Shown: one piece after another, positions 4,347 to 64,000 of the stretch
How positions within the stretch are numbered: the first letter of the stretch is position 1
Layout of the letters: every line of letters begins with the position of its first letter
Assembly: GCA_017860455.1 (NCBI GenBank)
Contig: JAGDMF010000004.1
Location: 1-64,000, forward strand
DNA: 64,000 nt
Source: Bacteroidota bacterium
GTDB taxonomy: Bacteria > Bacteroidota > Bacteroidia > Bacteroidales > WCHB1-69
Reading direction: 5' to 3'
Translations under genes and position numbers: made by a program
The notes under the pieces: model-generated
Told to the model about the DNA's origin: nothing
The model's database searches: none
Seen by the model: only the letters and a program-made list of their open reading frames with translations

Positions 4347-4423
4347 ACAGGTAGAAGGTAGCAGGTAACATTTAATAGATAACATTTAACAGGTGACAGG
4401 GAACAGGTAGCAGGTAGCAGTTA
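4347..4423. repeat. Degenerate 7-bp tandem array (acaggta-type), ~11 units
   Basis: acaggta gaaggta gcaggta acattta atagata acattta acaggtg acaggga acaggta gcaggta gcagtta in one phase. Confidence 0.9.
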
Positions 4424-4460
4424 ACCATTATTCAGCTATCAGTTATCAGTTTTAGAATTT

Positions 4461-4537
4461 TTCATTTTTCATTTTTCATTTTTCATTTTTCATTATTCAT
4501 TTTTCACTATTCATTTTTCATTTTTCATTTTTCATTT
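4461..4537. repeat. 7-bp tandem array (ttcattt), 11 units
   Basis: ttcattt x4, ttcatta, ttcattt, ttcacta, ttcattt x4 without phase slip. Confidence 0.95.
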
Positions 4538-4540
4538 ATT

Positions 4541-4564
4541 GTCTGCCGTCTGCCGTCCGCCGTC
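4541..4564. repeat. 7-bp tandem array (gtctgcc), ~3.4 units
   Basis: gtctgcc gtctgcc gtccgcc gtc. Confidence 0.85.
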
Positions 4565-4736
4565 TTTTCACTCCTGATTATTCAACTGTAAATTAGCCGG
4601 AATATTTAAAAAAAACAAAAAGAAAATAAGATGGAATGTTAAAAAAAACGAAATGTAAGTGAGTCGGATCATGCATAAATATAAAAAGAAATGAACTAGA
4701 AGTGATTGAAAATATATTTTATAGTAACTTTTTCTG

Positions 4737-4744
4737 TATTTTTG
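4737..4744 (+). promoter_or_regulatory. -7 element (TATTTTTG) upstream of arginine decarboxylase
   Basis: TAnnTTTG match 31 bp before the ATG. Confidence 0.55.
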
Positions 4745-4775
4745 CGTTTCTAATAATGATAATTAAATAGGTATT

Positions 4776-6206
4776 ATGAGAACTAAGTATATTGATCTGA
4801 TTTCGCAAACTTATGAGTTTCCACAAGAGGAGTTCAAAGTAGAAGATAATGAATTGTATTACAATGATATCCCACTTATGGATATCATCAAACAGTATGG
4901 AACTCCTTTAAAAATTACTTACTTACCAAGAATATCCCAAAATATTCAGAAAGCAAGAAGATGGTTCAATGTCGCAATCGCTCGCGCAGATTACCAGGGT
5001 GATTACCATTATTGCTATTGTACAAAGAGTTCCCACTTTGAATTTGTTTTAACCGAAGTACTTAAAAATGGAGTTCATATAGAAACCTCCTCTGCATTTG
5101 ATATCAACCTGATTGAAGTTTTAAATGAAAATGGTCAATTTAATAAAGATAATTACATCATTTGCAATGGATATAAAAAACAACAATACATCGATAATAT
5201 TGCTCAGTTAATCGCTGATGGTTATACGAACGTGATCCCTATCATCGATAATTTAGCTGAATTTGATCAACTCGATAAAGCGGTTCAGGGAAAATGTCAG
5301 ATTGGAATCAGAATTGCAGCTGAAGAGGAACCAAGATTTGAATTCTATACTTCCCGTCTGGGAATCAGATATAACGAGATTTTACCGTTCTACGAAAATA
5401 AAATCAAAAAAAATAAAAAGTTTAAGCTGAAAATGCTCCACTTTTTTATCAATACAGGGATTAATGACACCGCTTATTATTGGAATGAGTTGAGCAAGTG
5501 CGTTAGCATCTATTGTGATTTGAAGAAAATTTGTCCAGACCTCGATTCCCTTAATATTGGAGGTGGATTCCCAATCAAAAATAAATTATCTTTTGTTTAC
5601 GATTATGAATATATGGCAGAGGAGATTGTCTCTCAAATTAAACAAATTTGTGAAAGGGAAGGCGTAAAAGAACCCAATATTTTTACTGAATTTGGATCCT
5701 ATACCGTTGGTGAAGCAAGTGCTGTGCTATACTCCATTCTTCAACAGAAAAGACAAAATGATCGCGAGCTGTGGAATATGATCGATAGTTCCTTTATGAC
5801 AACTTTACCCGATTCCTGGGCCATAAATCAACAATTTATTATCTTAGCAGTTAATAACTGGGATAAGGAGTATGAACGGGTTTTTTTAGGTGGACTCACT
5901 TGTGATAGTCACGATTATTACAATTCTGAAGCGAATCTAAACGCAGTTTTTTTACCCAAAATTGCTGATAATTACATCAGTAAGGATCAGGATGAAGACG
6001 TTAAAGAACAAGATGTTCAGTATATCGGTCTGTTTAATACCGGTGCCTATCAGGAATCTGTTGGAGGATATGGTGGGATCCAACACTGTTTAACACCGGC
6101 ACCTAAACATATCATCATTACAAAAGATGAAGATGGAGAGATTGTGACAAAACTGTTCGCAAAAGAACAAAGTTATAAATCAATGCTCAAAATTTTGGGT
6201 TATTAG
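4776..6206 (+). CDS. speA: Arginine decarboxylase-like PLP enzyme (short Bacteroidetes type, fold type III)
   Basis: 476 aa; YHYCYCTKSSHFEFV PLP-Lys region, SLNIGGGFP, FTEFGSYTVGEASA. Confidence 0.75.
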   Translation: MRTKYIDLISQTYEFPQEEFKVEDNELYYNDIPLMDIIKQYGTPLKITYLPRISQNIQKARRWFNVAIARADYQGDYHYCYCTKSSHFEFVLTEVLKNGVHIETSSAFDINLIEVLNENGQFNKDNYIICNGYKKQQYIDNIAQLIADGYTNVIPIIDNLAEFDQLDKAVQGKCQIGIRIAAEEEPRFEFYTSRLGIRYNEILPFYENKIKKNKKFKLKMLHFFINTGINDTAYYWNELSKCVSIYCDLKKICPDLDSLNIGGGFPIKNKLSFVYDYEYMAEEIVSQIKQICEREGVKEPNIFTEFGSYTVGEASAVLYSILQQKRQNDRELWNMIDSSFMTTLPDSWAINQQFIILAVNNWDKEYERVFLGGLTCDSHDYYNSEANLNAVFLPKIADNYISKDQDEDVKEQDVQYIGLFNTGAYQESVGGYGGIQHCLTPAPKHIIITKDEDGEIVTKLFAKEQSYKSMLKILGY

Positions 6207-6292
6207 TAGTTTTTTCTGACAATTTGACATAAAAGCGATTTGGCACAGTTTGTGTATCATATCTACGTTGAAATTAAAAAAACGTGATATAT

Positions 6293-8161
6293 ATGCAAAC
6301 AGGAAAAATTAATGTACAAACGGAAAACATTTTCCCAATTATCAAAAAATTTTTGTATTCAGATCATGACATTTTCCTTAGGGAATTGGTCTCTAATGCA
6401 GTGGATGCTACTCAAAAATTAAAAACCTTAACTACCTATGGTAATCTGCCAATCGAATTGGGTGATTTAACAATTCAGGTTCAGGTAAATAAAGAGGACA
6501 AAACATTGAGAGTGATCGATAGAGGAATCGGTATGACTGAAGATGAAGTGGTTAAGTACATCACTCAAATTGCATTCTCAAGTGCTGAAGAGTTTTTAGA
6601 TAAATATAAAGGAACAGATTCTGCTAATATCATTGGTCATTTTGGTTTAGGTTTCTATTCCTCTTTTATGGTCGCTAAAGAGGTTGAAATCATTACTAAA
6701 TCACATATTGAAGGCGCACAGGCAGTGAGATGGGTTTGTGATGGCTCTCCGGAATATACCATAGACCCTTGTGAAAAAGAGGATAGAGGTACTGAAATCA
6801 TTCTTCATATTGCCGAAGAGGAGGAGTCCTTCCTGGATGAATTTAAAATTATTGAACTTTTAAATAAATATTGTAGATTTTTACCTATCCCTATCCAGTG
6901 TGGTATGGAAAAAGATTATTCTAATCAAGAAGGAGAAGAAGATTCTAAAGAGATTGAAAAACCAAGAATTATCAATAATACCAACCCAATCTGGAAACAA
7001 GCTCCTGTGAATTTAACTCAGGAGAACTATACTCAGTTTTATAGAGAGTTGTACCCCATGACTTTTGAAGAACCATTGTTCCAAATTCATTTGAATGTGG
7101 ATTATCCATTTAATCTGACCGGTGTTTTATATTTTCCAAAAGTTAAAAATCAGTTTGAAATTCAAAAAAACAAAGTTCAACTATATTGTAATCAGGTTTT
7201 TATAACTGATCAACTGGAAGGTGTTATACCTGAATTTATGATGCTTTTACACGGTGTTATTGACTCTCCCGATATTCCATTAAATGTATCCCGTTCCTAT
7301 TTGCAATCTGATGCTCAGGTTAAAAAAATCTCTTCCCATATCACTAAAAAAGTGGCTGATAAATTAGAGGAGATGTTTAAAAATGACCGTGAAGATTTTG
7401 AAAAAAAATGGGACGATATCAAAATTTTTATTCAATATGGATCTATTTCCGATGAAAAATTTTATGATAAAGCCAAAAATTTCTTTTTGTTCAAAAATAT
7501 TGATGGAAAATATTTCACTATAGATGAATATAAAACACATATTGAAACTTTACAAAAAGATAAAAATGAACAATTGATCTATCTTTATACATCTGATGTT
7601 GAAACACAACATGTTTACATCAATAGTGCTAAAGAAAGAGGTTATGATATCTTGTTAATGGACGGATTTTTAGATACCCATTTTATTAATTTATTGGAAC
7701 AAAAATTGGAAAAATCAAGATTTACCAGAGTGGATGCTGATGTGATTGATAAATTGATCCAAAAAGAGGAAACATTAGTATCCAAATTGTCTGAAACAGA
7801 AACAACTAAGTTGAAAGAAGCGTATGATCAAATGGTTGAAAAAGAAAAATTTAGTGTTGTTATTGAAAGTTTGAGTGATACTGATTTGCCTGTTTTAATC
7901 ACCAGAAATGAGTTTATGAGACGCTATATGGATATGGAACGTATTTCAGGTCAAAAAGGGATTTACGGTCAGTTTGAACACTATAATTTGGTCGTAAATG
8001 GGAACCATGAGATTTCACAAAGAATCATTAATGAAGAAAATGAAGAAAAACAAAAACAATTAATACAACAAATGATAGATTTAGCGTTATTATCTCAAAA
8101 TATGCTTACCGGTGAAAAATTAAGTCAATTTGTAACCAGAAGTATTCAAATGATAAATTAA
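6293..8161 (+). CDS. htpG: Molecular chaperone HtpG (Hsp90)
   Basis: GKINVQTENIFPIIKKFLYSDHDIFLRELVSNAVDA; GHBKL ATPase motifs; alternative start at 6284. Confidence 0.95.
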   Translation: MQTGKINVQTENIFPIIKKFLYSDHDIFLRELVSNAVDATQKLKTLTTYGNLPIELGDLTIQVQVNKEDKTLRVIDRGIGMTEDEVVKYITQIAFSSAEEFLDKYKGTDSANIIGHFGLGFYSSFMVAKEVEIITKSHIEGAQAVRWVCDGSPEYTIDPCEKEDRGTEIILHIAEEEESFLDEFKIIELLNKYCRFLPIPIQCGMEKDYSNQEGEEDSKEIEKPRIINNTNPIWKQAPVNLTQENYTQFYRELYPMTFEEPLFQIHLNVDYPFNLTGVLYFPKVKNQFEIQKNKVQLYCNQVFITDQLEGVIPEFMMLLHGVIDSPDIPLNVSRSYLQSDAQVKKISSHITKKVADKLEEMFKNDREDFEKKWDDIKIFIQYGSISDEKFYDKAKNFFLFKNIDGKYFTIDEYKTHIETLQKDKNEQLIYLYTSDVETQHVYINSAKERGYDILLMDGFLDTHFINLLEQKLEKSRFTRVDADVIDKLIQKEETLVSKLSETETTKLKEAYDQMVEKEKFSVVIESLSDTDLPVLITRNEFMRRYMDMERISGQKGIYGQFEHYNLVVNGNHEISQRIINEENEEKQKQLIQQMIDLALLSQNMLTGEKLSQFVTRSIQMIN

Positions 8162-8166
8162 CGCGA

Positions 8167-8919
8167 ATGACGAAACCTATAGTTTTAGAAATTTGTGCTC
8201 CATCATTGCATTCTGCTATCAATGCAGATCTTGCAGGAGCCGATAGAATTGAGTTGTGCCAAAATCTAAATGAGGGGGGCACAACTCCTTCATTTGGTAA
8301 TATTAAGTATTGTGTAGATCATTTAAAATTAAAAACCAATGTCCTGATTCGCCCAAGATCAGGCGATTTTTGTTATAGTGATGAAGAGTTTCATACTATA
8401 CAACATGATGTTGAGTTGTGTAAGGTCTTAGGAGTTCATGGAGTTGTTGTTGGTTTTCTAAATGAAGATTTAACCATTGATATTGAAAAAACCCGCAAAA
8501 TTGTTGAAATTGCTACTCCTATGAGTGTTACCTTTCATAGAGCTTTTGATATTTGTAAAGATTGGAATACCGCTTTGGAACAGATCATTTCCTGTGGCTG
8601 TAATACCATATTGACTTCCGGAACAAGAAAAACTGCCTACGAAGGGATCCAAATTTTAAAAGAGATCGTTCAAAAAGCACAAAATAGAATTACAATATTA
8701 GCAGGTAGTGGAATTAATCCTTCAAATGCCTCTGAGATTATTGAAAAGACTGGTGTGCAAGAAATTCATTCCTCTTGTACACGCTCTATTTCTAATTCAA
8801 ATGGATCTCCAGAAGTTGAAAAACTTTTAGATGAATCCAATATTTATCACAAAGAGAGCGATATAGATCTAATCAAAAAAATATTATCTTTGCAAATTAT
8901 AAATAAATCAAAAAAATAA
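8167..8919 (+). CDS. cutC: Copper homeostasis protein CutC
   Basis: LEICAPSLHSAINADLAGADRIELCQNLNEGGTTPSFG; TFHRAFD. Confidence 0.9.
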   Translation: MTKPIVLEICAPSLHSAINADLAGADRIELCQNLNEGGTTPSFGNIKYCVDHLKLKTNVLIRPRSGDFCYSDEEFHTIQHDVELCKVLGVHGVVVGFLNEDLTIDIEKTRKIVEIATPMSVTFHRAFDICKDWNTALEQIISCGCNTILTSGTRKTAYEGIQILKEIVQKAQNRITILAGSGINPSNASEIIEKTGVQEIHSSCTRSISNSNGSPEVEKLLDESNIYHKESDIDLIKKILSLQIINKSKK

Positions 8920-8924
8920 TCATT

Positions 8925-9395: not shown

Positions 9396-9406
9396 AAAAT
9401 AGTATT

Positions 9407-12331: not shown

Positions 12332-12407
12332 TTCAAAAATGTAACATTTTCATTAAATTCGATACTAATAGTTCAAATTTGACAAAATATTCAAAAAATT
12401 ATACAAA

Positions 12408-18801: not shown

Positions 18802-18803
18802 TT

Positions 18804-24872: not shown

Positions 24873-26243
24873 ATGAAAAAAAGTATCCCGTTTCCAATCA
24901 AATGTAGCTTTAAAAAAGTACTAACCCTCCTTTTTTTAGTTTGTATTGTATGTATTAGTTCCACTCTTTTTGCTCAAAAACAATGGACGCTGGATGCATG
25001 TATTGACTATGCTCAACAGAACAGCTTTTCTGTGAAACAAAAAATGATCGAATTAAATAATAAACAGATCCAATACAAATCTACAAAAATGAGTATTGCC
25101 CCCTCTGTTTCTGCTTCTGTGGGACAAAATATTGACTTCGGTCGATCTCAGGTTGCTTCCTCTTTGATTATTAGCGGAAACCAAGCTTCTACCTCTTTTG
25201 GTATAGGAATGAATATGGATCTTTTTCAAGGATTAAGAACGTATAATCAATTAAAAGCCAATCAAATAGATATTCAAACAACCCGTTACGAACTGGAGCA
25301 GGTAAGAGAAAATGTGGAAATGACCGTGATGGCATATTATCTTCAGGTTCTTTTAAATCGTGAAATATTGGCAGTTGCCAAAGTTCAGGAACAGATTTCG
25401 CTCGATATGGTTACTAAAGTAGAATTGCTTGTACAAAACGGAAAGAGTTCAGATGCTGAATTATTCGTTGCTAAATCAACACTGGCTAACGACAGGTATA
25501 GTGTTGTGGAAGCTGAAAATAGTCTGAATTTATCTAAACTCGACTTAGCTCAATTAATCAATTATCCTAATGTTAACGATTTTGATATTGTTCCCATGGA
25601 TCAGGAGTATTTAATTGATGAACTGTTGAATCGTTCTATTGATGTGAATGCGCTTATTAATAATGCATTACTAAATAGACCAACAATCAAGGCTGCTTTA
25701 AATAAAATTGAAAAAGCCAAAAGAGATATTCAAATTGCTCAATCTTCCTGGTATCCATCCCTTAGTTTTTTCGCCAATTACGGAACCGGATATAACTATA
25801 TGTTCACCCCATCACCTCAATATCCAAATACATCTTTTAATAAACAATTCAATAACAACTCCAGACAAGTGATTGGTCTTTCGCTCAATATCCCGATTTT
25901 TGATAAATTAAACACCCATTATAACGTCAAATTGGCTAAATTAGCAGTTCAATCTCAGGAGTTTCAAATGGAGGAGGGAAAATTAACCCTCATTAAAGAG
26001 ATTCAGCAAGCCCATGCCAATGCGATAGCAGCGAAAGAACGCTACAATTCAGCATTAGAAGCATATCAGGCAGCTAAAATTTCGTTTGAATATGAAAAGA
26101 TCCGTTATGAAGAAGGTGCATCAACCAACTATGAGTTTAATGATGCCAAAAATAAATATCTCAAATCGGAATCACAACTTATCCAATCCAAATTTGATTA
26201 CATTTTCCGAATCAAAATACTCGAATTTTACGGGAAAAATTAA
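24873..26243 (+). CDS. TolC family outer membrane efflux protein
   Basis: Signal peptide, WTLDACIDYAQQNSFSVK, coiled-coil OEP repeats. Confidence 0.88.
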   Translation: MKKSIPFPIKCSFKKVLTLLFLVCIVCISSTLFAQKQWTLDACIDYAQQNSFSVKQKMIELNNKQIQYKSTKMSIAPSVSASVGQNIDFGRSQVASSLIISGNQASTSFGIGMNMDLFQGLRTYNQLKANQIDIQTTRYELEQVRENVEMTVMAYYLQVLLNREILAVAKVQEQISLDMVTKVELLVQNGKSSDAELFVAKSTLANDRYSVVEAENSLNLSKLDLAQLINYPNVNDFDIVPMDQEYLIDELLNRSIDVNALINNALLNRPTIKAALNKIEKAKRDIQIAQSSWYPSLSFFANYGTGYNYMFTPSPQYPNTSFNKQFNNNSRQVIGLSLNIPIFDKLNTHYNVKLAKLAVQSQEFQMEEGKLTLIKEIQQAHANAIAAKERYNSALEAYQAAKISFEYEKIRYEEGASTNYEFNDAKNKYLKSESQLIQSKFDYIFRIKILEFYGKN

Positions 26244-26246
26244 AAA

Positions 26247-26281
26247 GTCAGACGGCAGATAACAGACTACAGATAACGGAC
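26247..26281. repeat. 7-bp degenerate array (gtcagac/tacagat type), 5 units
   Basis: gtcagac ggcagat aacagac tacagat aacggac. Confidence 0.75.
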
Positions 26282-26308
26282 TAATATTTTTAATAAACAT
26301 ATTTATTA

Positions 26309-26376
26309 TCGAGCAATCGAGCAATCGAGCATTCGAGCAATCGAGCAATCGACTATCGACCATCGACCATCGACTC
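26309..26376. repeat. 8-bp array (tcgagcaa x5) passing into 7-bp array (tcgacca x4)
   Basis: tcgagcaa tcgagcaa tcgagcat tcgagcaa tcgagcaa tcgacta tcgacca tcgacca tcgactc. Confidence 0.92.
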
Positions 26377-26378
26377 TT

Positions 26379-27377
26379 TTATTTTACATCAGTAAAAGTG
26401 TACACCAGCCCAATCCCTACAATCTCTTTGAATTGAACCCGCCGTATCCGGGTACGGGGTTGATTGATCCCATTTTCATATTCGTCAAACTTTACCTTTT
26501 CATTGTATCGTAATGATGTAGTGATCCGAAAATTTAACATTTTTAAGAATTGATAGGAAAGCGATAAATCCCAATCCACTTTGAAATTCCCGAACTTTTG
26601 ATCAGGATCACTATAAGGTGTGTAAAGCTCTAAAACAGTAGCAATTTTTATTCCTTTGTAAGTGGTGTTAACCGTTGTTTTCATCTTTGGTCCAACAGTC
26701 GTTATACTTCTTTTATCTACAGGTACACCATAATCGGCCCTTAACATAGAGTCAGGACAACTGGTTACCAATCCTGCAGCAGGGGAGAGGTAAATCGAAA
26801 AATGTTCATTGTATTTCCAGTCAATACCCAACGAAATATCGGTGTAAGCCGGCGACAAAAAACTGGTCAATTTCTTCGGTTCATTCAAATTGGGAAATTG
26901 TTGCGGATATCGGTAACTGTCGGTGTGTTGTGATTTGAAAGTAATCAATCCTGTTATGAAAAACTTATTGGCTACTTCGTACCCAAACTTAGAGGAGAAA
27001 TTGATTTTATCTGCGGATTTTCTCCAGGTAGGCAATAATTCGGATGAATAGAGAATTCCTAACTCATTGTCTATCATTGACTCCCAGGCTAACTTGTTTT
27101 TATTGTATATAAGCTTGGATTTGAGATTAAATATAGCATTAAAATGTTTATACCCACCCTCAGCCCAATTCCATTGATCCGTTTGAGCTAAATTTAAACC
27201 CGCTTCCCCTGAAAAATGCCAGTAATCTAACCACAAATTATTCATGAAAGTATCTGTAATCCCTTCTGTTTTGATGGTCTCAATTCTGTTGTAACGACTA
27301 ATAGTTGGATGAGTTTGAGAAAAAGAAAAATGAATGAAACTCCCCAATAAAAATAGGATCAACAAAAACTTTTTCAT
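26379..27377 (-). CDS. DUF3078 family outer-membrane-type protein
   Basis: Signal peptide; LNLAQTDQWNWAEGG typical DUF3078. Confidence 0.8.
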   Translation of the reverse strand: MKKFLLILFLLGSFIHFSFSQTHPTISRYNRIETIKTEGITDTFMNNLWLDYWHFSGEAGLNLAQTDQWNWAEGGYKHFNAIFNLKSKLIYNKNKLAWESMIDNELGILYSSELLPTWRKSADKINFSSKFGYEVANKFFITGLITFKSQHTDSYRYPQQFPNLNEPKKLTSFLSPAYTDISLGIDWKYNEHFSIYLSPAAGLVTSCPDSMLRADYGVPVDKRSITTVGPKMKTTVNTTYKGIKIATVLELYTPYSDPDQKFGNFKVDWDLSLSYQFLKMLNFRITTSLRYNEKVKFDEYENGINQPRTRIRRVQFKEIVGIGLVYTFTDVK

Positions 27378-34191: not shown

Positions 34192-34327
34192 ACAATATTA
34201 TTATATTTTTAATATTACATTTTTTACTTTTTTTATAAAAAAATTGTTTAAGGATTGTAATTATATCTTATCTATCAATAAATCAAATAAATAACGTTAC
34301 TAAAATAAAATAAATCACACTTCCATT

Positions 34328-34480
34328 CACCTATCACCTGTCCCCTGTTACCTGTCACCTGTCACCTGTCACCTATCACCTATCACCTATCACCTGTCAC
34401 CTGTCACTTATTACCTGTTACCTATCACCTGTCACCTGTTACCTGTCACCTGTCACCTTATCCTTCGCCTTTAGCCTTTC
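34328..34480. repeat. 7-bp tandem array (cacctgt/cacctat), ~19 units plus degenerate units
   Basis: cacctat cacctgt cccctgt tacctgt cacctgt ... cacctgt cacctta, then atccttc gccttta gcctttc; in phase over ~150 bp. Confidence 0.95.
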
Positions 34481-34870
34481 CAAAATCTGAACTACACTTT
34501 TTTCAATCTCAAAATAGGGCAGGATCTCTTTAGATATAAAAACAAGAATAATCTGTATTTTTTTATTTTGATTAAAATGAGTGTCACAATAAACCGATTT
34601 ATTGTGTAATCTGTAAGCTTCTTTGGTTCTTCGTTTAATGAGATTTCTGAAAACAGCCTTTTTAAATAGTCGTTTGGAAACACTTACGGTCATTTGATTC
34701 CAATCGACTTCAGATTTTTTATCACTAATAAAATAGTAACATTTAAATGGGTAAACAAAAATGGTTTGGTTTTGGTCAATAATTGACTGTATCTCCTTTT
34801 TTGAACAAAGTCTTTCGGCTTTTACAAATGTTTTTGGGGAGCATTTCAAATTATCGTCTTCTTGTTGCAT
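34439..34870 (-). CDS. rnpA: Ribonuclease P protein component
   Basis: AERLCSKKEIQSI; KRLFKKAVFRNLIKRRTKEAYR; order DUF4271-hemD-rnpA typical of Bacteroidetes. Confidence 0.9.
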   Translation of the reverse strand: MQQEDDNLKCSPKTFVKAERLCSKKEIQSIIDQNQTIFVYPFKCYYFISDKKSEVDWNQMTVSVSKRLFKKAVFRNLIKRRTKEAYRLHNKSVYCDTHFNQNKKIQIILVFISKEILPYFEIEKSVVQILERLKAKDKVTGDR

Positions 34871-43270: not shown

Positions 43271-43604
43271 ATTTTGAAATTTCCTGATACACACGACCAG
43301 CAATATCAAAGGTTTCCATCGGTGTTCCTAAAATTGGAATCTCCTCATCTTTAGCTTGTTCCAACATATCAGGATCAGGTTGAAACCCTTTTACTAATAT
43401 CACACAGGCCAACTCTTTTAAGGATGCAATCGCAATCACATTTTTATGTGTTTGTAAAGTCATCCATACATGTCCTTCCTGTGCAAACCCCATCACATCA
43501 CTCAAAAGATCTGAAACATATCCACCTTTAATTTCTCTATCCAGATGTTCCTCCCCACAAAAGAGTTTTAAATCCAATTTATCAACTAATTCTCTAACTT
43601 TCAT
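43269..43604 (-). CDS. DRTGG-domain small protein
   Basis: GGYVSDLLSDVMGFAQEGHVWMTLQTHKNVIAIASL; 111 aa. Confidence 0.7.
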   Translation of the reverse strand: MKVRELVDKLDLKLFCGEEHLDREIKGGYVSDLLSDVMGFAQEGHVWMTLQTHKNVIAIASLKELACVILVKGFQPDPDMLEQAKDEEIPILGTPMETFDIAGRVYQEISK

Positions 43605-43641
43605 TGTATTCTATAATTTTTTTAATATTAATTTCAAAACA

Positions 43642-43649
43642 CAAAAATA
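43642..43649 (-). promoter_or_regulatory. -7 element (TATTTTTG) of the DRTGG gene
   Basis: caaaaata on + strand. Confidence 0.45.
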
Positions 43650-43659
43650 CTAAAAATAA

Positions 43660-43691
43660 TTAGCAAATTAGCAAATTAGCAAATTAGCAAA
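43660..43691. repeat. 8-bp tandem array ttagcaaa x4
   Basis: ttagcaaa ttagcaaa ttagcaaa ttagcaaa, exact. Confidence 0.95.
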
Positions 43692-43699
43692 TTAATAAT

Positions 43700-43734
43700 G
43701 AAAAATGAAAAATGAAAAATGAAAAATGAAAAAT
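43700..43734. repeat. 7-bp tandem array gaaaaat x5
   Basis: exact; reverse complement of the ttcattt-type word at 4461-4537. Confidence 0.95.
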
Positions 43735-43832
43735 CGAGCAATCGAGCAATCGAGCATTCTGAGCAATCGAGCAATCGAGCATTCTGAGCAAATGAGCATC
43801 ACGATCAATCGAGCATTCCGAGCATTCGAGCA
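43735..43832. repeat. 8-bp (locally 9-bp) array cgagcaat
   Basis: cgagcaat cgagcaat cgagcatt ctgagcaat cgagcaat cgagcatt ... cgagcatt ccgagcatt cgagcaac. Confidence 0.9.
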
Positions 43833-44902
43833 ACATCCTCTTCTTCCAGCAAATGGTGAAGGGGCAGGCAAATAATATTTTGGGCAACTTTTTCAGCTAC
43901 GGGTAATGGGAATCTTTTGAAATGTTTAAAAATGGGTACATCTGAAACTAATGGATCAAAATATTTTTTACAATGAATATTTTCGGTTTTTAATTTTTCA
44001 AATAGCTGATCTCTGGTGAAACCATATAAAGTTGGATTGATCATGATAGGAAAATAACCATAATTGTAATTAACACCGGGTTTCTCATTCATCATTGTGA
44101 TTCCTTGTATCGATTGTAGTTTTTTTTGATATAGTTTAAATATTTCTTTTCTTTTTTGAATCGACTGATCCACATACTGAAGCTGCAAAAGACCAAATGC
44201 AGCCTGAAATTCATTCATTTTCCCGTTTAATCCCGATGTGACAGGATTTTGAGTAGTGTCTATCCCATTGTTTTTCAGCTTTTCAATCTCAGTATGAAGT
44301 GCAGGATCTTTACAAATAATGGCTCCCCCTTCAATGGTATTAAAAGTTTTAGTAGCATGAAAACTGATAGTGGAACAATCGCCTGCCTGGAGAACAGAGT
44401 GATCGTTAATCTCAACACCAAAACAATGTGCCGCATCAAAAATTAACTTGATACAATGTTTTTTTGCCATTTTTTCTAATGCTTCAATATTACAGGGTTG
44501 TCCAAAAAGATGAACCGCTAAGATTGCTGAAGTTTGAGGGGTTATGGCTTGTTCAATTTTTTCAGGATCAATATTATACGTATCATCATCGATATCAACA
44601 AATACCGGTGTAAGACCATTCCACAATATCGCCTGAGCTGTTGAAATATGCGTAAATGGGGTTGTGATCACTTCACCAGTCACTTTTAGGGCTTTTAAAG
44701 CCAGAATTAAAGCAGTTGTCCCATTGTTGACCACACTCAAATGCTCCAACCCAAGCTTTTTTTTCAATTCCATTTCGAATTGCAGTTCCATATTTCCCCG
44801 ATTGGTGATAATACCCGATTCCCATATTTTTTCCAAATAGAGAACATATTCATCCAAAGGAGGCAATAGGGGATAGGTGGTTCTAATTGGTTTATTTTTC
44901 AT
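43805..44902 (-). CDS. DegT/DnrJ/EryC1/StrS family PLP aminotransferase
   Basis: NNGTTALILALKAL; TTPFTHISTAQAI; SFHATKTFNTIEGG. Confidence 0.9.
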   Translation of the reverse strand: MKNKPIRTTYPLLPPLDEYVLYLEKIWESGIITNRGNMELQFEMELKKKLGLEHLSVVNNGTTALILALKALKVTGEVITTPFTHISTAQAILWNGLTPVFVDIDDDTYNIDPEKIEQAITPQTSAILAVHLFGQPCNIEALEKMAKKHCIKLIFDAAHCFGVEINDHSVLQAGDCSTISFHATKTFNTIEGGAIICKDPALHTEIEKLKNNGIDTTQNPVTSGLNGKMNEFQAAFGLLQLQYVDQSIQKRKEIFKLYQKKLQSIQGITMMNEKPGVNYNYGYFPIMINPTLYGFTRDQLFEKLKTENIHCKKYFDPLVSDVPIFKHFKRFPLPVAEKVAQNIICLPLHHLLEEEDVARMLGMLD

Positions 44903-46001
44903 GAAATTTAAAAAAGGATTGAGTTGTGTATGCTATTTTTTGACAAATAATATCTAATAAGGCAATGATGTATAAAATGTTGATACACAATAAACTTTGA
45001 TATTTTGAATGAAGTTTAAAAATTGATAATACGATAGATGTTACTCCTAATAAATTGATGAAAATAAATAAAACTAAAAAAGAAAAATCATGTAATGCCA
45101 ACACGCCCAATGAAACATTGACAATAAAAAGTGATATCGGAATCAATAATTTAAAATATTTATGCCAAAGTAACATCCATTTTTCTTTTAAAGGTAATTT
45201 GCTGATTAAGTTTTGCTGAGTTATGATTTGAAATAAACCTGTTAAATATCTTTTAATTCTTTGATAATTATATAGTTGGTTGCAATTTTCATCGACAATG
45301 ATCGCTTCCTGTTGGAGTATAATCTTTTTGGTTTTCAATATTTGTAATGATACATAAAGGTCATCTAAAATAATATCTTCAGGAATGGTATGATAACAAT
45401 CTTTTTTAATGGCATATAGAGGACCATAAACCCCAATCAATTTTCCCAATCGACTCTCTTTACTTTTAATAAAATTCTCAATTATTCGGATAATGGAATA
45501 TTTCCCTTTTTTATCTTGAGCAGAAAGTATGGATGAAACTGCACCAATCTCTTGATTGTTTAAGGGAGTAACAATTTTTTTGATGGCACCGGTTGAGATG
45601 GTTTGCCTTTGATCACAAAAGACAATGTAGGGAAATTGAGCCATCTTCACTGCTTCATTCATGGAATTGGGAATCCCTTTTTGAATCTCTTTGAGAATTA
45701 TTTTCACTTTAGGATGATGAAAATTCTTTAAAAAATTGGGGGTTTCATCACAACTTCCATCATCAATTATGATAATTTCACTTTGATTAAATTCCTGAAT
45801 TTCAAACAGTAATTGCGTTAATTTTTGATTCAAGTATTGAAATCCATTGTATGACAAATAGATAATAGTGATTCCATCTTTTATTTCATTTTCAAAATAG
45901 GGAATCTCTTCGTTTCTCCCTTTGTAATTGATCCAAATAGGATACAAAAGACTAAAAATAATCAACAATAAACAAACAAAAAGTAGAATATAGATTACCA
46001 T
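44892..46001 (-). CDS. Membrane glycosyltransferase family 2
   Basis: IIIIDDGSCDET, ILDDLYVSL, YQRIKRYLTGLFQ; N- and C-terminal TM. Confidence 0.88.
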   Translation of the reverse strand: MVIYILLFVCLLLIIFSLLYPIWINYKGRNEEIPYFENEIKDGITIIYLSYNGFQYLNQKLTQLLFEIQEFNQSEIIIIDDGSCDETPNFLKNFHHPKVKIILKEIQKGIPNSMNEAVKMAQFPYIVFCDQRQTISTGAIKKIVTPLNNQEIGAVSSILSAQDKKGKYSIIRIIENFIKSKESRLGKLIGVYGPLYAIKKDCYHTIPEDIILDDLYVSLQILKTKKIILQQEAIIVDENCNQLYNYQRIKRYLTGLFQIITQQNLISKLPLKEKWMLLWHKYFKLLIPISLFIVNVSLGVLALHDFSFLVLFIFINLLGVTSIVLSIFKLHSKYQSLLCINILYIIALLDIICQKIAYTTQSFFKFHEK

Positions 46002-47401
46002 TACCGGTTGTTTTTTTTAACAATTTTTAAACGATATATTGACTTTAATACCAAATAAATTTTTTCTCCCACACTTTTAGGAAGAATACGTTGAATCCAC
46101 TCTGAAATATTTTTAGCGATATCAAAGAGAATGTTTTTTTTATCCTGATTGCTGTAAAAACCCTCTTTTTTAACCAGACGAATCGCATCCACTCTATCTT
46201 TGTACGGAAATTCAGGAGTTTCAAAAACAATTCTGGGCTCAATAGAATGGTAATTATGAATCAAAGGAACTAACAAAGTGCCATGTTTTTGAACATAATC
46301 CCACTGTGGGGTTCCTTTAAACGGTAAAACAGTGTAAAAATTGGTGTAATCACAACCCGAATTTTTGGCATAAGCAATCGATTCCTTTACATGTTCTAAA
46401 GTTTCAAAAGGACTCCCAATTACAAATTGTGACATAATTTCGATTCCTGCATCTTTTAAAATCCGAATCCCTTCCGAAACCTTTTCGATGGTTGTCCCTT
46501 TCCCAATTTTTTCTAATATTTCATTGTTTGCCGATTCTATTCCAATAGATACATTATAACAACCTGCTTTTTTTAATTTTTGAGCGATCTCTTTTGTGAT
46601 AAAATCAGCCCGATAAGAAACGGCCCATAAAATATCTAACTTTTTCTCAATCAATAAATCACAAAATTGATCAATCCTGTTTAAAGGGATATTAAAACTA
46701 TTATCTCCAAAAATAAATAGTTTTTTTCCATAATGTTGAATAAGATATTCAATTTCGGTTACCATCTTTTCCGGACTCATGTATCTGGTTCCCTTTTTCC
46801 ATAATGAACTGGAATTACACCAGGCACAACTATAGGGACAACCTCTGCTGGTTACCATTCTGTGCAACGGATAACGGTTCATCGGAAAGAGATCATAAGC
46901 CGGAATCGGTAAACTATCAATATCTTTCATCTGTTCCCGTTCCGGATTGATGATTAATTCACCCTCTTTTGTTTTATACATTAATCCATTAATAGAATCA
47001 ATAGATTTTAATCCTTTAATTGATGATATCAATTCAGAAAATGTGATTTCACCCTCTCCATAAACCGCAAAATCTGCAGGGGTTTCATTAAATATTTCCT
47101 CTCTAATAGTTGTAACATACGGTCCACCTAAACAAATGAGTGTTTTAGGGTGATTTTTTCCAATGGTGTTAAATATTTTTTTTACTTCGAAATAAACAGG
47201 AGAATAAACAGTGATTCCAATAAGAGCAAACGAAGTGTTAAAAAAACGGTTTGTCTCTTTTCGGGTTGCTACTCTGGTATCTAAAACCTGAAATTCCAGA
47301 TCATCATGATGTAAACGTGCATAAGCTGCAATTAATCCAAGTCCCAGATGAACCGTTTTATATCTCCGATCCTGATTCGGAAAGATGAGTCCTATTTTCA
47401 T
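46001..47401 (-). CDS. B12-binding domain radical SAM protein
   Basis: GGPYVTTIREEIF cobalamin-binding region; SRGCPYSCAWCNSSSLW radical SAM. Confidence 0.9.
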   Translation of the reverse strand: MKIGLIFPNQDRRYKTVHLGLGLIAAYARLHHDDLEFQVLDTRVATRKETNRFFNTSFALIGITVYSPVYFEVKKIFNTIGKNHPKTLICLGGPYVTTIREEIFNETPADFAVYGEGEITFSELISSIKGLKSIDSINGLMYKTKEGELIINPEREQMKDIDSLPIPAYDLFPMNRYPLHRMVTSRGCPYSCAWCNSSSLWKKGTRYMSPEKMVTEIEYLIQHYGKKLFIFGDNSFNIPLNRIDQFCDLLIEKKLDILWAVSYRADFITKEIAQKLKKAGCYNVSIGIESANNEILEKIGKGTTIEKVSEGIRILKDAGIEIMSQFVIGSPFETLEHVKESIAYAKNSGCDYTNFYTVLPFKGTPQWDYVQKHGTLLVPLIHNYHSIEPRIVFETPEFPYKDRVDAIRLVKKEGFYSNQDKKNILFDIAKNISEWIQRILPKSVGEKIYLVLKSIYRLKIVKKNNR

Positions 47402-52101: not shown

Positions 52102-52213
52102 ATACGATTTTTAATGAATTCAGTTCTAATATGAAAGATTATTTTAAATTGAAATCGTTTAACAACAAAAATGAAGAGTAATATAGATTGTATAACTAAT
52201 GTATCTATTTATC

Positions 52214-52253
52214 AATTAGCTTATTAGCACATTCTCTAATTAGCTCATTATTT
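52214..52253. repeat. 8-bp degenerate array (aattagct), 5 units
   Basis: aattagct tattagca cattctct aattagct cattattt. Confidence 0.65.
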
Positions 52254-52255
52254 AG

Positions 52256-52263
52256 TATTTTTG
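52256..52263 (+). promoter_or_regulatory. -7 element (TATTTTTG) of the lipoprotein gene
   Basis: TAnnTTTG match directly after the repeat. Confidence 0.5.
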
Positions 52264-52278
52264 CAAAAAATAAATCGT

Positions 52279-52722
52279 ATGAAAAAATTTGCACTCTCCT
52301 GTATCGCAATATGCTTATTGTTAACCGGTTGTAAGTATGATGAAGGTCCATTTATCAGTTTAAGAGAAGCTGAAACCCGTTTGGTTGGGGTTTGGGAACT
52401 GATTAATGTTTACAAAAACGGGGAAATACCCGAAACAGTTCCTTACGCTGCTTATAAACCCGGAACCTATTATACTTTTTATTTTGACTATTTAATGTCC
52501 GTTACTGCCATAGTAAACAATAATGTGAGAGAGTCAACCCAAGGTTTCTGGAGGTTTTTAGATAACGAAAAAAACCTCGAAGTTCAATTCCAACTTCCGG
52601 GAGAATCCTATTTTTACGAAGCTCAAATCAAGAGACTTACCATGTCTGAACTCCGTTATGAGTTTACTGACGATGAAGGTAATGTTTGGCGCTTTGAAAT
52701 GTTTTCCAGATCACATTACTAA
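52279..52722 (+). CDS. Lipocalin-like lipoprotein, hypothetical
   Basis: Lipobox LLTGCKYDEGPFISLR; start trimmed to 52279. Confidence 0.65.
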   Translation: MKKFALSCIAICLLLTGCKYDEGPFISLREAETRLVGVWELINVYKNGEIPETVPYAAYKPGTYYTFYFDYLMSVTAIVNNNVRESTQGFWRFLDNEKNLEVQFQLPGESYFYEAQIKRLTMSELRYEFTDDEGNVWRFEMFSRSHY

Positions 52723-53833: not shown

Positions 53834-53841
53834 CAAAAGTA
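53834..53841 (-). promoter_or_regulatory. -7 element (TACTTTTG) of pfkA
   Basis: caaaagta on + strand. Confidence 0.5.
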
Positions 53842-53874
53842 ACATAAAATTGCTCTATCAGGCAACTTTTTATA

Positions 53875-53882
53875 TATTTTTG
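53875..53882 (+). promoter_or_regulatory. -7 element (TATTTTTG) of the CHU_C gene
   Basis: TAnnTTTG match. Confidence 0.5.
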
Positions 53883-53909
53883 CATCTAAGAAAAAAAGTT
53901 TTAAAACGT

Positions 53910-56807: not shown

Positions 56808-56808
56808 A

Positions 56809-57672: not shown

Positions 57673-57673
57673 T

Positions 57674-59544: not shown

Positions 59545-59580
59545 ACCCTGAAACCAGTTAACCCCATAAAAGAGGATTTA

Positions 59581-60633
59581 ATGAAAGAAGAATTATTAGA
59601 TGAGATTCCCGGAAACGAGGAAAAGGATGAATTATACGAACATTTTAATTTTGAAGTAGATAGAGGTCAAAGTTTAACCCGAATGGATAAGTATTTGATG
59701 GGATTGATCCCTAATACTTCCAGAAATAAGATACAGAATGCGGTTAGGGCTAATTGTATTTTAGTAAACGGAAAACCTGAAAAATCAAATTACAAAGTAA
59801 AACCATTAGACAAAATCTCTGTTTTGATGCCTAATCCACCTCGAGATATAGAGATTATAGCAGAAGATATTCCTCTAAACGTAGTTTATGAAGATGATGA
59901 TGTGATTTTAATCAATAAAGAAGCGGGACTTGTTGTACATCCCGGTTACGGAAATTATACAGGTACTTTGGTGAATGCATTAACTTATCGGTTTTTAGGT
60001 AAAAAAACCAAAACCGGAGAGGAAATGAAACCGTATCTGGTACATAGAATCGATAAAAATACATCCGGAATTATTATTGTTGCTAAAAATGAATGGGCAC
60101 AGATCCATTTGGCTAAACAATTTTTTAATCATACCATTGATCGTAAATATTACGCATTGGTATGGGGAGATTTCAAAGAGGAGGAAGGAACTATCAATAT
60201 ACATGTAGGAAGAAATCCAAAAGATAGATTGGTGATGACCACTTTTCCGGAAGGAGAGCAAGGCAGACATGCGATAACCCATTGGAAAGTGGTGGAGCGA
60301 TTCGGGTATGTTACTTTAGTTGAATGTGTCCTCGAAACCGGTAGAACTCACCAAATCAGAATTCACATGAAATCGATTGGTCATCCCCTTTTTAACGATA
60401 CTACTTACGGTGGAAATGAGATCATCAAAGGAACCACTTTCTCCAAATACAAACAATATATTCACAATTGTTTTGAAATTATTCCACGTCAGGCGTTACA
60501 TGCCAAACAGTTAGGATTTGTTCACCCAACAACTGAAGCGTATATGTTTTTTGACTCCGATCTTCCTGCTGATATGACGCAAGTTTTGGATAAATGGAGA
60601 AACTATTCGAAGAATAAAGAATTGGAGGAATAA
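59581..60633 (+). CDS. rluD: RluD-like 23S rRNA pseudouridine synthase
   Basis: S4-like N-terminus; HRIDKNTSGIIIVAKN; TGRTHQIRIHM. Confidence 0.92.
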   Translation: MKEELLDEIPGNEEKDELYEHFNFEVDRGQSLTRMDKYLMGLIPNTSRNKIQNAVRANCILVNGKPEKSNYKVKPLDKISVLMPNPPRDIEIIAEDIPLNVVYEDDDVILINKEAGLVVHPGYGNYTGTLVNALTYRFLGKKTKTGEEMKPYLVHRIDKNTSGIIIVAKNEWAQIHLAKQFFNHTIDRKYYALVWGDFKEEEGTINIHVGRNPKDRLVMTTFPEGEQGRHAITHWKVVERFGYVTLVECVLETGRTHQIRIHMKSIGHPLFNDTTYGGNEIIKGTTFSKYKQYIHNCFEIIPRQALHAKQLGFVHPTTEAYMFFDSDLPADMTQVLDKWRNYSKNKELEE

Positions 60634-60688
60634 TGTGCTGATGTGCTAATGTGTTGATGTGCTAATGTGCTAATGTGCTTATATGGTA
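60633..60688. repeat. 8-bp tandem array (atgtgcta), 7 units
   Basis: atgtgctg atgtgcta atgtgttg atgtgcta atgtgcta atgtgctt atatggta; starts at the last base of the rluD stop. Confidence 0.9.
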
Positions 60689-60716
60689 ATATTGAAGATG
60701 TTTCAATTTTGAGATT

Positions 60717-61757
60717 TTAGAAATATGAATTTACAGCAAATTTATATTGTTCAATAAATATTTTTTTAAAGTTAGAAATATTATTTTGTTCATAAAATAA
60801 TAACATTGCTTTTTTGTAATCTAAAGAATCCACTGTCCTGAATGAAATTGGACAATAATTAAAGTTGATAAGTATGGCATTACTTACAATTCTAGCTGTT
60901 CTTTTATTCCCATCAACAAAAGGTTGAATATAAGATATTAATAATAAAATTAGTAATGCTTTCTCAAAAATATTGTCTTTATAATTCACCAAATTACACA
61001 TATTTGTAAGTGCTTCCTGAATTTGAAAGTAGTTATATAAAGGCCTGTAATTTGTTCCAGAAATTCCAACTCTACTTTTTCTAATTCTTTTATCATCTAT
61101 TAATTCTTTGATCAAAAAAGAATGAATATCTTCGATCTTTGAAATTTTTAATGGAATAATATAATCAGGATGTTCAATTATAAAGTCTATTGCATCTTTG
61201 TGATTGAGTAGCATTATAGCCTCCTCTTTTGTTTTACCTGCCGCAGTTTCCTTTTCTAAAAGTAATCTTTCTGTTTCCAAAAGGGAATATGTGTTTCCCT
61301 CTATCTGAGATGATTTCCAACTTAAATCAATCGCAAGTCGTTCTAGTTCTTTCCTGCGTTCAAGTGCAGAGAGTTTTAAAATATTGTTTTCAAATTTATT
61401 TTGAAATTGATTTAATTCGTTTAATTCAATCGTTGTAAAAATCGAATTTTCTTGAAGAAGATCAGAAATAAGCTGAAAATTATAACTGTCGTTGATTATT
61501 CTTTCATCAATCTCCTTTTCAAAATAGATATCCATGTCAATGGGGCAAACCATTTTGTATAAAGGAGATAGAAAATATTTTCTAGATTTCCCGTTTCCTT
61601 TAATTCTTAATATATTTTGATTGATTAATTTTGTAAGAATTCTCTTAGTTGTAGCATAACTAATCAATGAAGATTTAAATTCAAAAATTTCTTTTGAAGA
61701 TAAATCAGGTTTTTCCTTCAAAAGTTCAATAATTTCTAATTCATTTTTTTCTAACAT
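60717..61757 (-). CDS. Fic family protein with N-terminal winged-HTH; catalytic His replaced by Gln
   Basis: IQPFVDGNKRTAR (Fic core HPFxxGNxRxxR); SSQIEGN inhibitory-type motif; wHTH-like N-terminus; start trimmed to 61757. Confidence 0.85.
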   Translation of the reverse strand: MLEKNELEIIELLKEKPDLSSKEIFEFKSSLISYATTKRILTKLINQNILRIKGNGKSRKYFLSPLYKMVCPIDMDIYFEKEIDERIINDSYNFQLISDLLQENSIFTTIELNELNQFQNKFENNILKLSALERRKELERLAIDLSWKSSQIEGNTYSLLETERLLLEKETAAGKTKEEAIMLLNHKDAIDFIIEHPDYIIPLKISKIEDIHSFLIKELIDDKRIRKSRVGISGTNYRPLYNYFQIQEALTNMCNLVNYKDNIFEKALLILLLISYIQPFVDGNKRTARIVSNAILINFNYCPISFRTVDSLDYKKAMLLFYEQNNISNFKKIFIEQYKFAVNSYF

Positions 61758-61760
61758 AAT

Positions 61761-61848
61761 TATAAGTATTGAGCTCACAAAAATAAACATTTTAGCTCAA
61801 TTATTTTCATTTTTGAGCTTTATTTTGTAAAATAATGAGCTACAAAAT
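61761..61848. repeat. Four AGCT-core sites with exact 22-bp spacing (putative operator iterons)
   Basis: AGCT at 61772, 61794, 61816 and 61838 in ttgagctca, ttagctcaa, ttgagcttt, atgagctac. Confidence 0.75.
61778..61785 (-). promoter_or_regulatory. -7 element (TATTTTTG) of the Fic gene
   Basis: caaaaata on + strand, between iterons 1 and 2. Confidence 0.5.
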
Positions 61849-61855
61849 TAATTTT

Positions 61856-63853
61856 TTATTTTTTGACTACAAATTTTCGGTAAATAGGATGAGTTGGTGT
61901 TGTGATTTTTAACAGATATACACCAGAATTTAAAGTAGTTACATTAATATTGGTTTTATAACCTTCTAAATTTTGCACCAATTTGCCCTGCAAATCATAA
62001 ATCTGTGTTTGTATTATTTGAACTCCATTTTCCGGATACAAACTTAAAATGTCAGAAGTTGGATTGGGATAGATTCTTACATAATCATCATTTGATTGTT
62101 CAAAATCAGCGATTCCAACTTCATTAGAGGAAACAATATTGGATCTGGAGGATGTTATAGATTTTGTCGGATTACAAGGTGTTGGAGTTATCACTTCTAC
62201 TTGATAATATACCGTTCCTGAAGGAGCGTTTAAATCAGTATATTGCGTACTGGTACCGGATGTGGAACCTAGTAATGCCAAATTGGAAGAAGTAGTACCT
62301 CTATAAATGTTGTAGGAGGTTACATCAAATCCGAAATAGGGTTCCCAAATTAGATTGTAAGTTGTTCCAATCCCCTGATTGATGGCAAGATGCATTGTTT
62401 TGTGCGGTTCACTTTTTTGTGATTCAATTCCACAAATATCTTTCATTGCAATTTTATATTGATTAGATTGTACCGTTGGATTGGAACTGAGATCTTCAAA
62501 AAGGGACGTTTGGGTGTAAGGGATCACTCCAATCATTTGATAGATGTTTGATATGGTTGTTTCTCTGTAAATGTAAAATGAATCCACAAAATCGATTTCA
62601 GGTTTTTCCCATGCAATCAAATTTTTATTATTCTCGCTTACACCTACTATACAAATCTCTGGAGCACTCATAGGAACTACAGAAATGGTAACGGAAGAAG
62701 TGGCACTGCATCCATTTTGAATCGAAGCTGTTACAGTATAAGTAGTTGTTTGTGAAGGAGCTGCGATTGGGTTTTGACTATTCGGATCATTTAAACCTGT
62801 CACAGGAGTCCAACTAAATTGATCAAAATGCACCTTTTTTACAATATGCCCTTGTTCTCCAACACTATAACATACCTGATCACTACCAAAACTGATTCCC
62901 AATAGTGTTAGGTTGGGATTATAATTGGAGTTCCAATTGGTGCCATCAGAAGTTGTTAATATGGTATTTTGTCCTGCAATATAACCTATGCCTATTGAAT
63001 TAAATTCAATGGATCTTAGATGATTCACTGTTCCTGAAGTTTGTAAAATCCAGTTTTCTCCGGCATCAATGGTCTTAAGAATAGTGCCATTATCCCCTAT
63101 AGCAAATCCTATATTGCTAGAAATAAAATAAATATCATGTAAAGTTTCGGATGTATTGCTGGTTTTTGGACTCCAGGTAAGACCGGCATCAATTGTTTTT
63201 AAGATAGTTCCGGAACTACCTACTATAAATCCGGTTGCAAGACTTGTAAAATAAACACCGTATAAAGTCTGTAAAATGCCACTATTTAATGTTGTCCAAT
63301 TAAATCCACCATTCGTTGATTTTCCAATGGTGCCAAAACTTCCAACAACATAACCAGTCGATGGAGAAACGAAAAAAATATCATTTAAATTTCTACTGAT
63401 GGGATTATCTCCAAATGAGCCAGAATATATGGAATCCCCATGAATGATGCTGATCATTTCAATCGTCATCCCCTGAAAAGTAGCACTTCCCACAAAAAAA
63501 CCTAAAGTATCATTAAAAAAGCGAATTTTATTCAATGAAACAGAAACACCTGGGGCTGATGAGGTTTGAACGGACCAGGTTTGACCTCCATCTATTGTTT
63601 TTGCCAAAACAGCACTGTTAACATTATCCCCAACAATATAGCCCAAATCATTATTAATAAAACAGGTAGACTTCAATGAAAAACTGTTAAGTTGGGTGTA
63701 ATTTATAGAATTCCAGCTTGTAGTTGGGGTTAAAGTGACTGACTCACCACAGGTGATACTTTGATTATTTCCAGCTGAAATGACACATTGAGCTAGTCCA
63801 AATTGAAATCCCCAAAAAAGAAAAATCCCTAAAAAAATAGTTTTCGTTTTCAT
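61856..63853 (-). CDS. Secreted YCF48/BNR-like beta-propeller protein with Ig-like, FnIII-like and T9SS type A domains
   Basis: Repeats GTILKTIDAGLTW; C-terminal RIYPNPTSDILSLYP...GVYLLKITTPTHPIYRKFVVKK. Confidence 0.85.
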   Translation of the reverse strand: MKTKTIFLGIFLFWGFQFGLAQCVISAGNNQSITCGESVTLTPTTSWNSINYTQLNSFSLKSTCFINNDLGYIVGDNVNSAVLAKTIDGGQTWSVQTSSAPGVSVSLNKIRFFNDTLGFFVGSATFQGMTIEMISIIHGDSIYSGSFGDNPISRNLNDIFFVSPSTGYVVGSFGTIGKSTNGGFNWTTLNSGILQTLYGVYFTSLATGFIVGSSGTILKTIDAGLTWSPKTSNTSETLHDIYFISSNIGFAIGDNGTILKTIDAGENWILQTSGTVNHLRSIEFNSIGIGYIAGQNTILTTSDGTNWNSNYNPNLTLLGISFGSDQVCYSVGEQGHIVKKVHFDQFSWTPVTGLNDPNSQNPIAAPSQTTTYTVTASIQNGCSATSSVTISVVPMSAPEICIVGVSENNKNLIAWEKPEIDFVDSFYIYRETTISNIYQMIGVIPYTQTSLFEDLSSNPTVQSNQYKIAMKDICGIESQKSEPHKTMHLAINQGIGTTYNLIWEPYFGFDVTSYNIYRGTTSSNLALLGSTSGTSTQYTDLNAPSGTVYYQVEVITPTPCNPTKSITSSRSNIVSSNEVGIADFEQSNDDYVRIYPNPTSDILSLYPENGVQIIQTQIYDLQGKLVQNLEGYKTNINVTTLNSGVYLLKITTPTHPIYRKFVVKK

Positions 63854-63893
63854 AACAATTTATTTTATTGATGATTACAGTTTTTATGATTGG

Positions 63894-63901
63894 CAAATAT
63901 A
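63894..63901 (-). promoter_or_regulatory. -7 element (TATATTTG) of the propeller gene
   Basis: caaatata on + strand. Confidence 0.5.
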
Positions 63902-63958
63902 TAAAAATTATTTAGATTCAACCATATTTTTAAAAAATAATCTATAATGAAATACTTA

Positions 63959-64000
63959 TGTGCTAATTGGGCTAAAGGCGAAGGGCTAAAGGCTAATAAG
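63959..64000. repeat. Start of a compound array (atgtgcta then ggctaaa heptads), runs off the window
   Basis: atgtgcta attgg... ggctaaa ggcgaag ggctaaa ggctaat aag. Confidence 0.7.

Follow-up and report, generated by a model that had tools for sequence, protein, structure and literature searches.

Short tandem arrays of 7- and 8-bp words form a dispersed intergenic repeat family with nearly private vocabularies in a Bacteroidota lineage

The first 64,000 nucleotides of contig JAGDMF010000004.1 (assembly GCA_017860455.1, hereafter the window), from a bacterium of the Bacteroidota lineage WCHB1-69, carry tandem arrays between genes in which short words of 7 or 8 bp are repeated, and these arrays are confirmed here as a real, genome-wide phenomenon. 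They are probably (at a rough probability of 0.6) the tandem part of modular, dispersed, non-coding intergenic repeats, which would be copied between loci as composites and locally expanded by 7/8-bp slippage. The reading builds on a sharp period, a small vocabulary that is specific to the species, a set order and orientation of words, an intergenic bias, repeated flanks and the absence of arrays from corresponding sites in congeners. The source genome is a 2.01-Mb draft in 46 contigs, 65% complete, with Bacteroidota-type host features (TAnnTTTGC promoter boxes and DUF3078). All genomes were examined as samples: the scan of the source genome covered 750 kb, in a first set of sequences partly picked for holding TCGAGCAA and a second set that was not, and 403 kb were read from the congener (same genus) G001. 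Genes were taken from simple open reading frame (ORF) calls.

A lag-match scan of the source genome, with a second-order Markov shuffle as control, found period 7 to be the largest class (88 segments) and period 8 a strong second basic unit (36). There were 39 segments at period 14, nine at 16, eight at 9, five each at 6 and 12, two at 11 and none at 4, 5, 10 or 13, and the shuffled sequence returned no segments at periods 7 and 8. The original prediction, drawn from the window alone, had named as support a sharp 7/8 peak instead of a broad distribution, confined to intergenic DNA and made up of a limited set of recurring words; the scan shows the sharp peak, a strong bias towards intergenic DNA and a small recurring vocabulary. 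Of the array bases, 80% are intergenic and 20% lie in ORFs, against approximately 90% of the DNA as a whole. Arrays occupy convergent, tandem and divergent spacers alike, with the highest density in the convergent class (27 loci in 10 kb) and the lowest in the divergent (18 in 17 kb), and show no orientation preference relative to genes in the case of the AATGAAA/T word (word B), which lies eight times on the same strand and eight times on the opposite one. A promoter-linked function was considered and rejected, given that TAnnTTTG boxes were found at 6.8% at array ends against 8.2% in other intergenic DNA of the source genome; there was likewise no enrichment in G018, a genome of another genus, and the frequency at G001 array ends was weakly higher (12.4% against 6.9%). 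Where such a box does follow an array (L306, L322 and L324 of G001 and several loci of the source genome), the gap is often 5-10 bp; it is exactly 6 bp in six of 11 G001 cases, and cases of this kind are not enriched in the source genome.

The vocabulary is far smaller than chance would give. When words were drawn at random from the source genome (500 draws), 169 distinct words were expected in 192 segments, compared with the 71 observed, and the 11 commonest words hold 109 of the segments where 30 were expected (maximum 40 in any draw). Besides word B, the main heptamers are ACAGGTA/G (word A), GGCAGAC (C), GGCGAAA/GGGCGAA (D) and ACCTAAA/ACCCAAA (E), and the main octamers are GAGCATTC/GAGCAATC/GAGCACAT (I) and GCTAATGT/AAATTAGC (J). 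No single trinucleotide core is common to the heptamers of the source genome; most of its recurrent octamers contain AGC. Four tandem copies of AATGAAW match 120 times in the source genome and are present in one of 247 other genomes of the phylum, and four copies of ATTAGCNN match 43 times and are present in none of 58 other genomes of the family.

Words also follow one another in a set order. With block order parsed in both orientations, and with word families that were set up after the arrays had been viewed, word B precedes word I (GAGCAnnn) in the same relative orientation in all ten adjacencies (p about 4e-6, as four configurations are possible). The window locus at 43.7 kb, where J, B and I run together, fits this rule. 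A GC-rich module (M, ending GGAATGCCC) precedes J in 5/5 adjacencies and B in 3/3, and B precedes E in 3/3. Junctions vary in detail between loci, which suggests that the composites have evolved since copying. Within arrays, a unit resembles the next but one more closely than average (p = 5e-5), a higher-order pattern that argues for block duplication.

The sequences beside the arrays are themselves often repeated. After masking of the arrays, 72 of 208 flanks in the source genome (35%) were found elsewhere in the sample, against 11 of 208 random stretches, and 63 of these 72 recur no more than 200 bp from an array. In G001 the figure is 45 of 84 (54%) against three of 84 random stretches, and all 45 are near arrays. 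A frequent flank in the source genome is the modular GC-rich repeat GCATTAGGG ... GGAATGCCC, which can carry arrays within it and at its end. Roughly 20 or more copies of this repeat are present in the 750 kb, often with arrays inside or at the 3' end; none lies in the window itself, and it has no Rfam match. A group II intron is represented at L097:7-960 by its 3' portion, which covers the end of the maturase and matches Rfam Intron_gpII at 875-952; it adjoins GTCTCC-type heptamers and the GC-rich module.

Comparison with congeners places the arrays as most likely young in their own lineage, because they are missing at corresponding sites. G001 lacks the 34.3-kb array and keeps both of its neighbours; the 4.35-kb array is missing in both G001 and G002, as is the 60.6-kb array after the same upstream gene. 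The 26.3-kb spacer carries arrays of different words in the three congeners. Gene order in G001 changes at four of the six window arrays tested (26.3, 43.7, 52.2 and 60.6 kb), which may reflect no more than the long spacers that breaks favour anyway. Among orthologous arrays of G001 and G002 no 7-bp indel was seen in the short stretches to which their overlap is limited.

The period is a family-level trait, whereas the words are nearly private to a species or clade and patchy in distribution. G001 has 67 segments of period 7 and no more than six of any other, and AAGAAGT is the only word that it has in common with the source genome. All 12 of its heptamer words contain GAA (combined with TTAC, ATCC, AGTC, GGCG, ATAA, GGTA and others; L305-L324, L057), which none of 2000 random draws of 12 words did, and different GAA-words run on from one another in phase. 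G002, a congener, has the words of G001. G018 has peaks at 7 (35 segments) and 8 (24) and has the octamers AAATTAGC and AATGTGCT in common with the source genome. In a search of the family, ATTAGCA[A/C] arrays were found in the source genome, four genomes of genus g17 and one of genus g7, and not in the two congeners; the reversed control gave zero. Period-7 segments number 24 in the rest of the family and two in the other families of the order, where there is no peak. Sharing across phyla is not claimed for GGTRACA, as an unselected Bacteroidota sample gave four of 247 genomes against two for the reversed control. Among the matches listed by a scan that had no control, GGTRACA in tandem is spread over many phyla (mostly Nostocales, with Acidobacteriota, Bdellovibrionota, Desulfobacterota and Hymenobacter; L161-L240), and several genomes, which had been picked for holding the word, have it at a large number of loci.

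Within the window, Tandem Repeats Finder recovered units of 7 or 8 bp at the loci that had been named from the sequence (Table 1), of which the one at 52.2 kb is real but weak. A single span at 4344-4565 comprises GTAACAG, TCAGTTA, ATTTTTC and GTCTGCC, and its flank is common to other GTAACAG loci of the source genome. At 26256-26374 the program reported period 14 (2x7), then ATCGAGCA with period 8 and ATCGACC with period 7, and at 63970-63996 a 7-bp GGCTAAA array. The ORF at 43805-44902 encodes a DegT-family aminotransferase. Since arrays overlap the 3' ends of this ORF and that of the ribonuclease P protein, the predicted C-termini of both are partly array-encoded. No known structured RNA was matched in the window using Rfam, and at other loci only tRNA, group II intron and DUF805b matched.

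Table 1. Arrays and associated features of the window, and copies of the GC-rich repeat elsewhere in the source genome
Feature	Position	Strand	Details
Non-periodic flank GCAAAAATACGAAATAAA	4324-4343	.	copies at L018:19194 and L011:351, each adjoining an array; phrase also at L012 ~3479
Word A array, 7 bp, GTAACAG / ACAGGT[A/G]	4344-4425	+	
TCAGTTA, minus-strand TAACTGA	4432-4451	-	~2.9 copies; heptamer of PMC4679880
Word B array, 7 bp, ATTTTTC	4457-4537	-	minus-strand AATGAAA
Word C array, 7 bp, GTCTGCC	4541-4565	-	minus-strand GGCAGAC
Word C variants, degenerate, 7 bp	26253-26283	+	GGCAGAT/AACAGAC/TACAGAT/AACGGAC
Word I array, 8 bp, ATCGAGCA	26308-26352	+	
Word G array, 7 bp, ATCGACC	26348-26374	+	runs on from word I
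Word A array, 7 bp, TCACCTG	34327-34458	-	~19 units; overlaps 3' end of ribonuclease P protein ORF 34439-34870
Short CTTCGCC / TTTAGCC heptamers (word D type)	34459-34482	-	joined to TCACCTG array 34327-34458; from sequence
Word J array, 8 bp, AATTAGCA	43658-43694	+	
Word B array, 7 bp, AAATGAA	43689-43734	+	
Word I array, 8 bp, AATCGAGC	43732-43833	+	8/9-bp irregularities; overlaps 3' end of ORF 43805-44902
Weak degenerate ATTAGCTC-type array, 8 bp	52215-52250	.	score 37, 67% matches; further match 52209-52264
Word J (reverse) array, 8 bp, TAATGTGC	60631-60690	.	begins at stop codon of ORF 59581-60633
Composite ATGTGCTA / GGCTAAA / GGCGAAG	63956-64000	.	goes on past the window as ATTAGCnn to ~64021
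Gene-order changes relative to G001	26143-26422, 43602-46055, 52102-52321, 60634-61009		
GC-rich repeat copies outside the window	L108:14144-14250, L097:960-1118, L010:1830-1994, L021 ~6843-7025, L024:7733-7858		and others

Under the proposed scheme, a composite would consist of one or more arrays of 7- or 8-bp words in set order, often with the GC-rich module, and would be copied into further positions between genes, chiefly close to where genes end. At the new site, single words would gain and lose copies and drift through slippage by 7/8 bp, which would be the growth step, together with block duplication. Because copying would use sequences already there, the small word list of each lineage would turn over between species with the period kept at 7/8. 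The arrays themselves are most likely tolerated passengers without a single regulatory role. Several points weigh against this scheme. Approximately 65% of flanks in the source genome are no recognisable repeat, so that arrays must commonly begin either de novo or from starts that have diverged completely. The control stretches came from all DNA and not from spacers only, and this may account for some of the flank excess. Adjacency counts other than that of B and I are small, and none of the word pairs among the nine adjacencies of G001 is frequent enough for an order test. Absence from congener sites does not reveal insertion junctions, as these sites are only ~70% identical. Finally, the presence of GAA in all 12 G001 heptamers is a regularity that plain copying and slippage do not predict.

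Other accounts of how the arrays are made are less probable. Independent slippage in place, with chance seeds expanding everywhere under a preference of the polymerase or of repair for units of 7/8 bp, is rather unlikely to be the whole explanation. It would agree with the 7-bp peak reported in many unrelated bacteria (PMC4679880), with the relatives that share the period and have other words and with the higher-order copies within arrays; however, a recurrent small vocabulary, a fixed order of distinct words and repeated flanks need copying between loci, so that slippage alone is insufficient. The original prediction of a common generating process is supported in so far as period, vocabulary, order and flanks describe one dispersed family that is more than independent local slippage, whereas the templated synthesis that it offered as a speculative option is not supported. 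For that, a dedicated enzyme would use a short (RNA) template to add 7/8-bp words and re-prime on an anchor such as GAA, in the manner of telomerase, which would suit a period that is fixed while the word varies, the GAA of the G001 heptamers and the phase in which different GAA-words follow each other. It is nevertheless very improbable: reverse transcriptase domain matches do not track arrays, RVT_1 is not found in the array-rich G018 (an incomplete draft, 92%), the sole reverse transcriptase match of the source genome (G000:C1) is a group II intron maturase, the source genome is without a single shared trinucleotide, and repeated flanks and block duplications that contain them point to copying of DNA. 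The GAA that all heptamers of G001 contain is nevertheless a hint of some sequence requirement, and there is a slim chance that a sequence-specific process fixes the period and a short core (GAA in G001 heptamers, AGC in most recurrent octamers of the source genome) while the four or five variable bases change, which would amount to a motif-anchored repeat-writing or repeat-copying activity. To our knowledge, no such activity has yet been described in bacteria.

Selection on sequence-specific functional sites, be it for termination, for a region upstream of promoters or for translational control as proposed for TAACTGA, is an improbable source of the arrays. Their intergenic bias, the proximity of some to stop codons, the arrays that have a TAnnTTTGC box 5-10 bp beyond their end and conserved cores such as that of G001 would all be expected of such sites, yet arrays occupy every type of spacer with no preferred orientation, promoter boxes are no commoner at their ends than elsewhere between genes, and the words are not kept between congeners, in which the window arrays tested are missing from the corresponding sites. 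Mobilisation by a REP-associated tyrosine transposase (RAYT; Y1_Tnp) has similarly little probability. The source genome has three Y1_Tnp genes, and both of those inspected have an M-type GC-rich module and arrays within ~1.2 kb; in contrast, the array-rich G001 has no Y1_Tnp match, G036 has six and yet no tandem repeats were found in its 20-kb sample, and G002, G018 and G029, for which a single Y1_Tnp locus per genome was read, have no arrays near it. RAYT was consequently rejected as a general driver, being inconsistent across genomes (G001, G036), and its role could be one limited to the M module in the source genome. The draft state of that genome raises the question of an assembly artefact of the metagenome bin, which is hardly credible given more than 100 array loci in unique gene contexts on many contigs, separately assembled congeners that show the same period with different words, and isolate cyanobacteria that show the same anatomy at the selected loci read.

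Short tandemly repeated repetitive sequences (STRR), which are mostly intergenic tandem heptamers of heterocystous cyanobacteria with several words per genome, are the oldest case. The window family resembles them in its tandem 7-bp units, its mostly intergenic position and its several recurrent words at many loci, some of them back to back. The host here is a member of the Bacteroidota and not a heterocystous cyanobacterium, so the arrays are STRR-like and not STRR. Octamers also make up a large share (36 segments against 88 of heptamers), unlike in STRR; at mostly cyanobacterial loci, which were partly selected, period 7 was the main peak and period 8 a minority. The library searched gave no detailed account for STRR of word order, a GC module or private vocabularies, the features measured here. 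TAACTGA arrays mixed with other heptamers are known from Bacteroidetes, Cyanobacteria and Beggiatoaceae (MacGregor 2015, PMC4679880), and the same paper already noted relatives without arrays at the same site. These are likewise intergenic heptamer arrays in Bacteroidetes, and the word itself is present in the window; in the Guaymas filament, however, most of the repeats read forward and sit directly before start codons, a placement that the present arrays as a whole do not follow, and TAACTGA is a minor word genome-wide, with one block in the block parsing, too few to judge that word alone. The long simple sequence repeats of Mrazek et al. (2007, as cited in PMC4679880 and PMC4692102), whose unit lengths peak at the heptanucleotide, share the 7-bp preference and the intergenic site; the words described here, in contrast, make up a vocabulary that is dispersed and ordered and has repeated flanks, and not a set of unrelated loci. 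The polymerase-contact hypothesis for the period preference, quoted from Mrazek et al. in PMC4679880, is compatible with the data as one option for the 7/8 period. The GGGNATC and GGGGA(T/C)T repeats of Xanthomonas and Nostoc (PMC4692102) are also genome-specific heptamers at many intergenic loci, usually of about four units, but are G-rich and form G-quadruplexes, whereas none of the present words is of the G-run type. REP/REPIN elements with RAYT are alike in the GC-rich intergenic module beside arrays and in the presence of Y1_Tnp genes, and unlike in that the present arrays are not palindromic and can abound in a genome, G001, that has no Y1_Tnp match. Two Y1 transposase genes of the sample (L330:1462-1950 and L340:1396-1857) have palindromic repeats of their own alongside, plus the GC module and arrays, L340 with about eight copies of a unit containing CAGGGCTAACGCCCC.

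The arrays are therefore not a new kind of repeat, since STRR, heptanucleotide repeats and TAACTGA arrays were already known, and the suggestion that no named family matches them did not hold. What appears to be new is that the period is common to a family while the words are nearly private to species or clades; that the words keep one order and orientation, with 35-54% of flanks being dispersed repeats themselves, mostly beside other arrays; and that the three window arrays tested are missing at corresponding congener sites.

Arrays of this type give rise to false ORF ends and to hypothetical proteins. Furthermore, the question of why bacterial tandem arrays prefer 7 bp has lacked an answer ever since genomes were surveyed for simple repeats, and this family provides a clean comparative system in which close species keep the period and replace the words, order is present and every word of one congener has GAA as its core. 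Whether polymerase slippage, a transposase or selection sets the period and the core thereby becomes testable.

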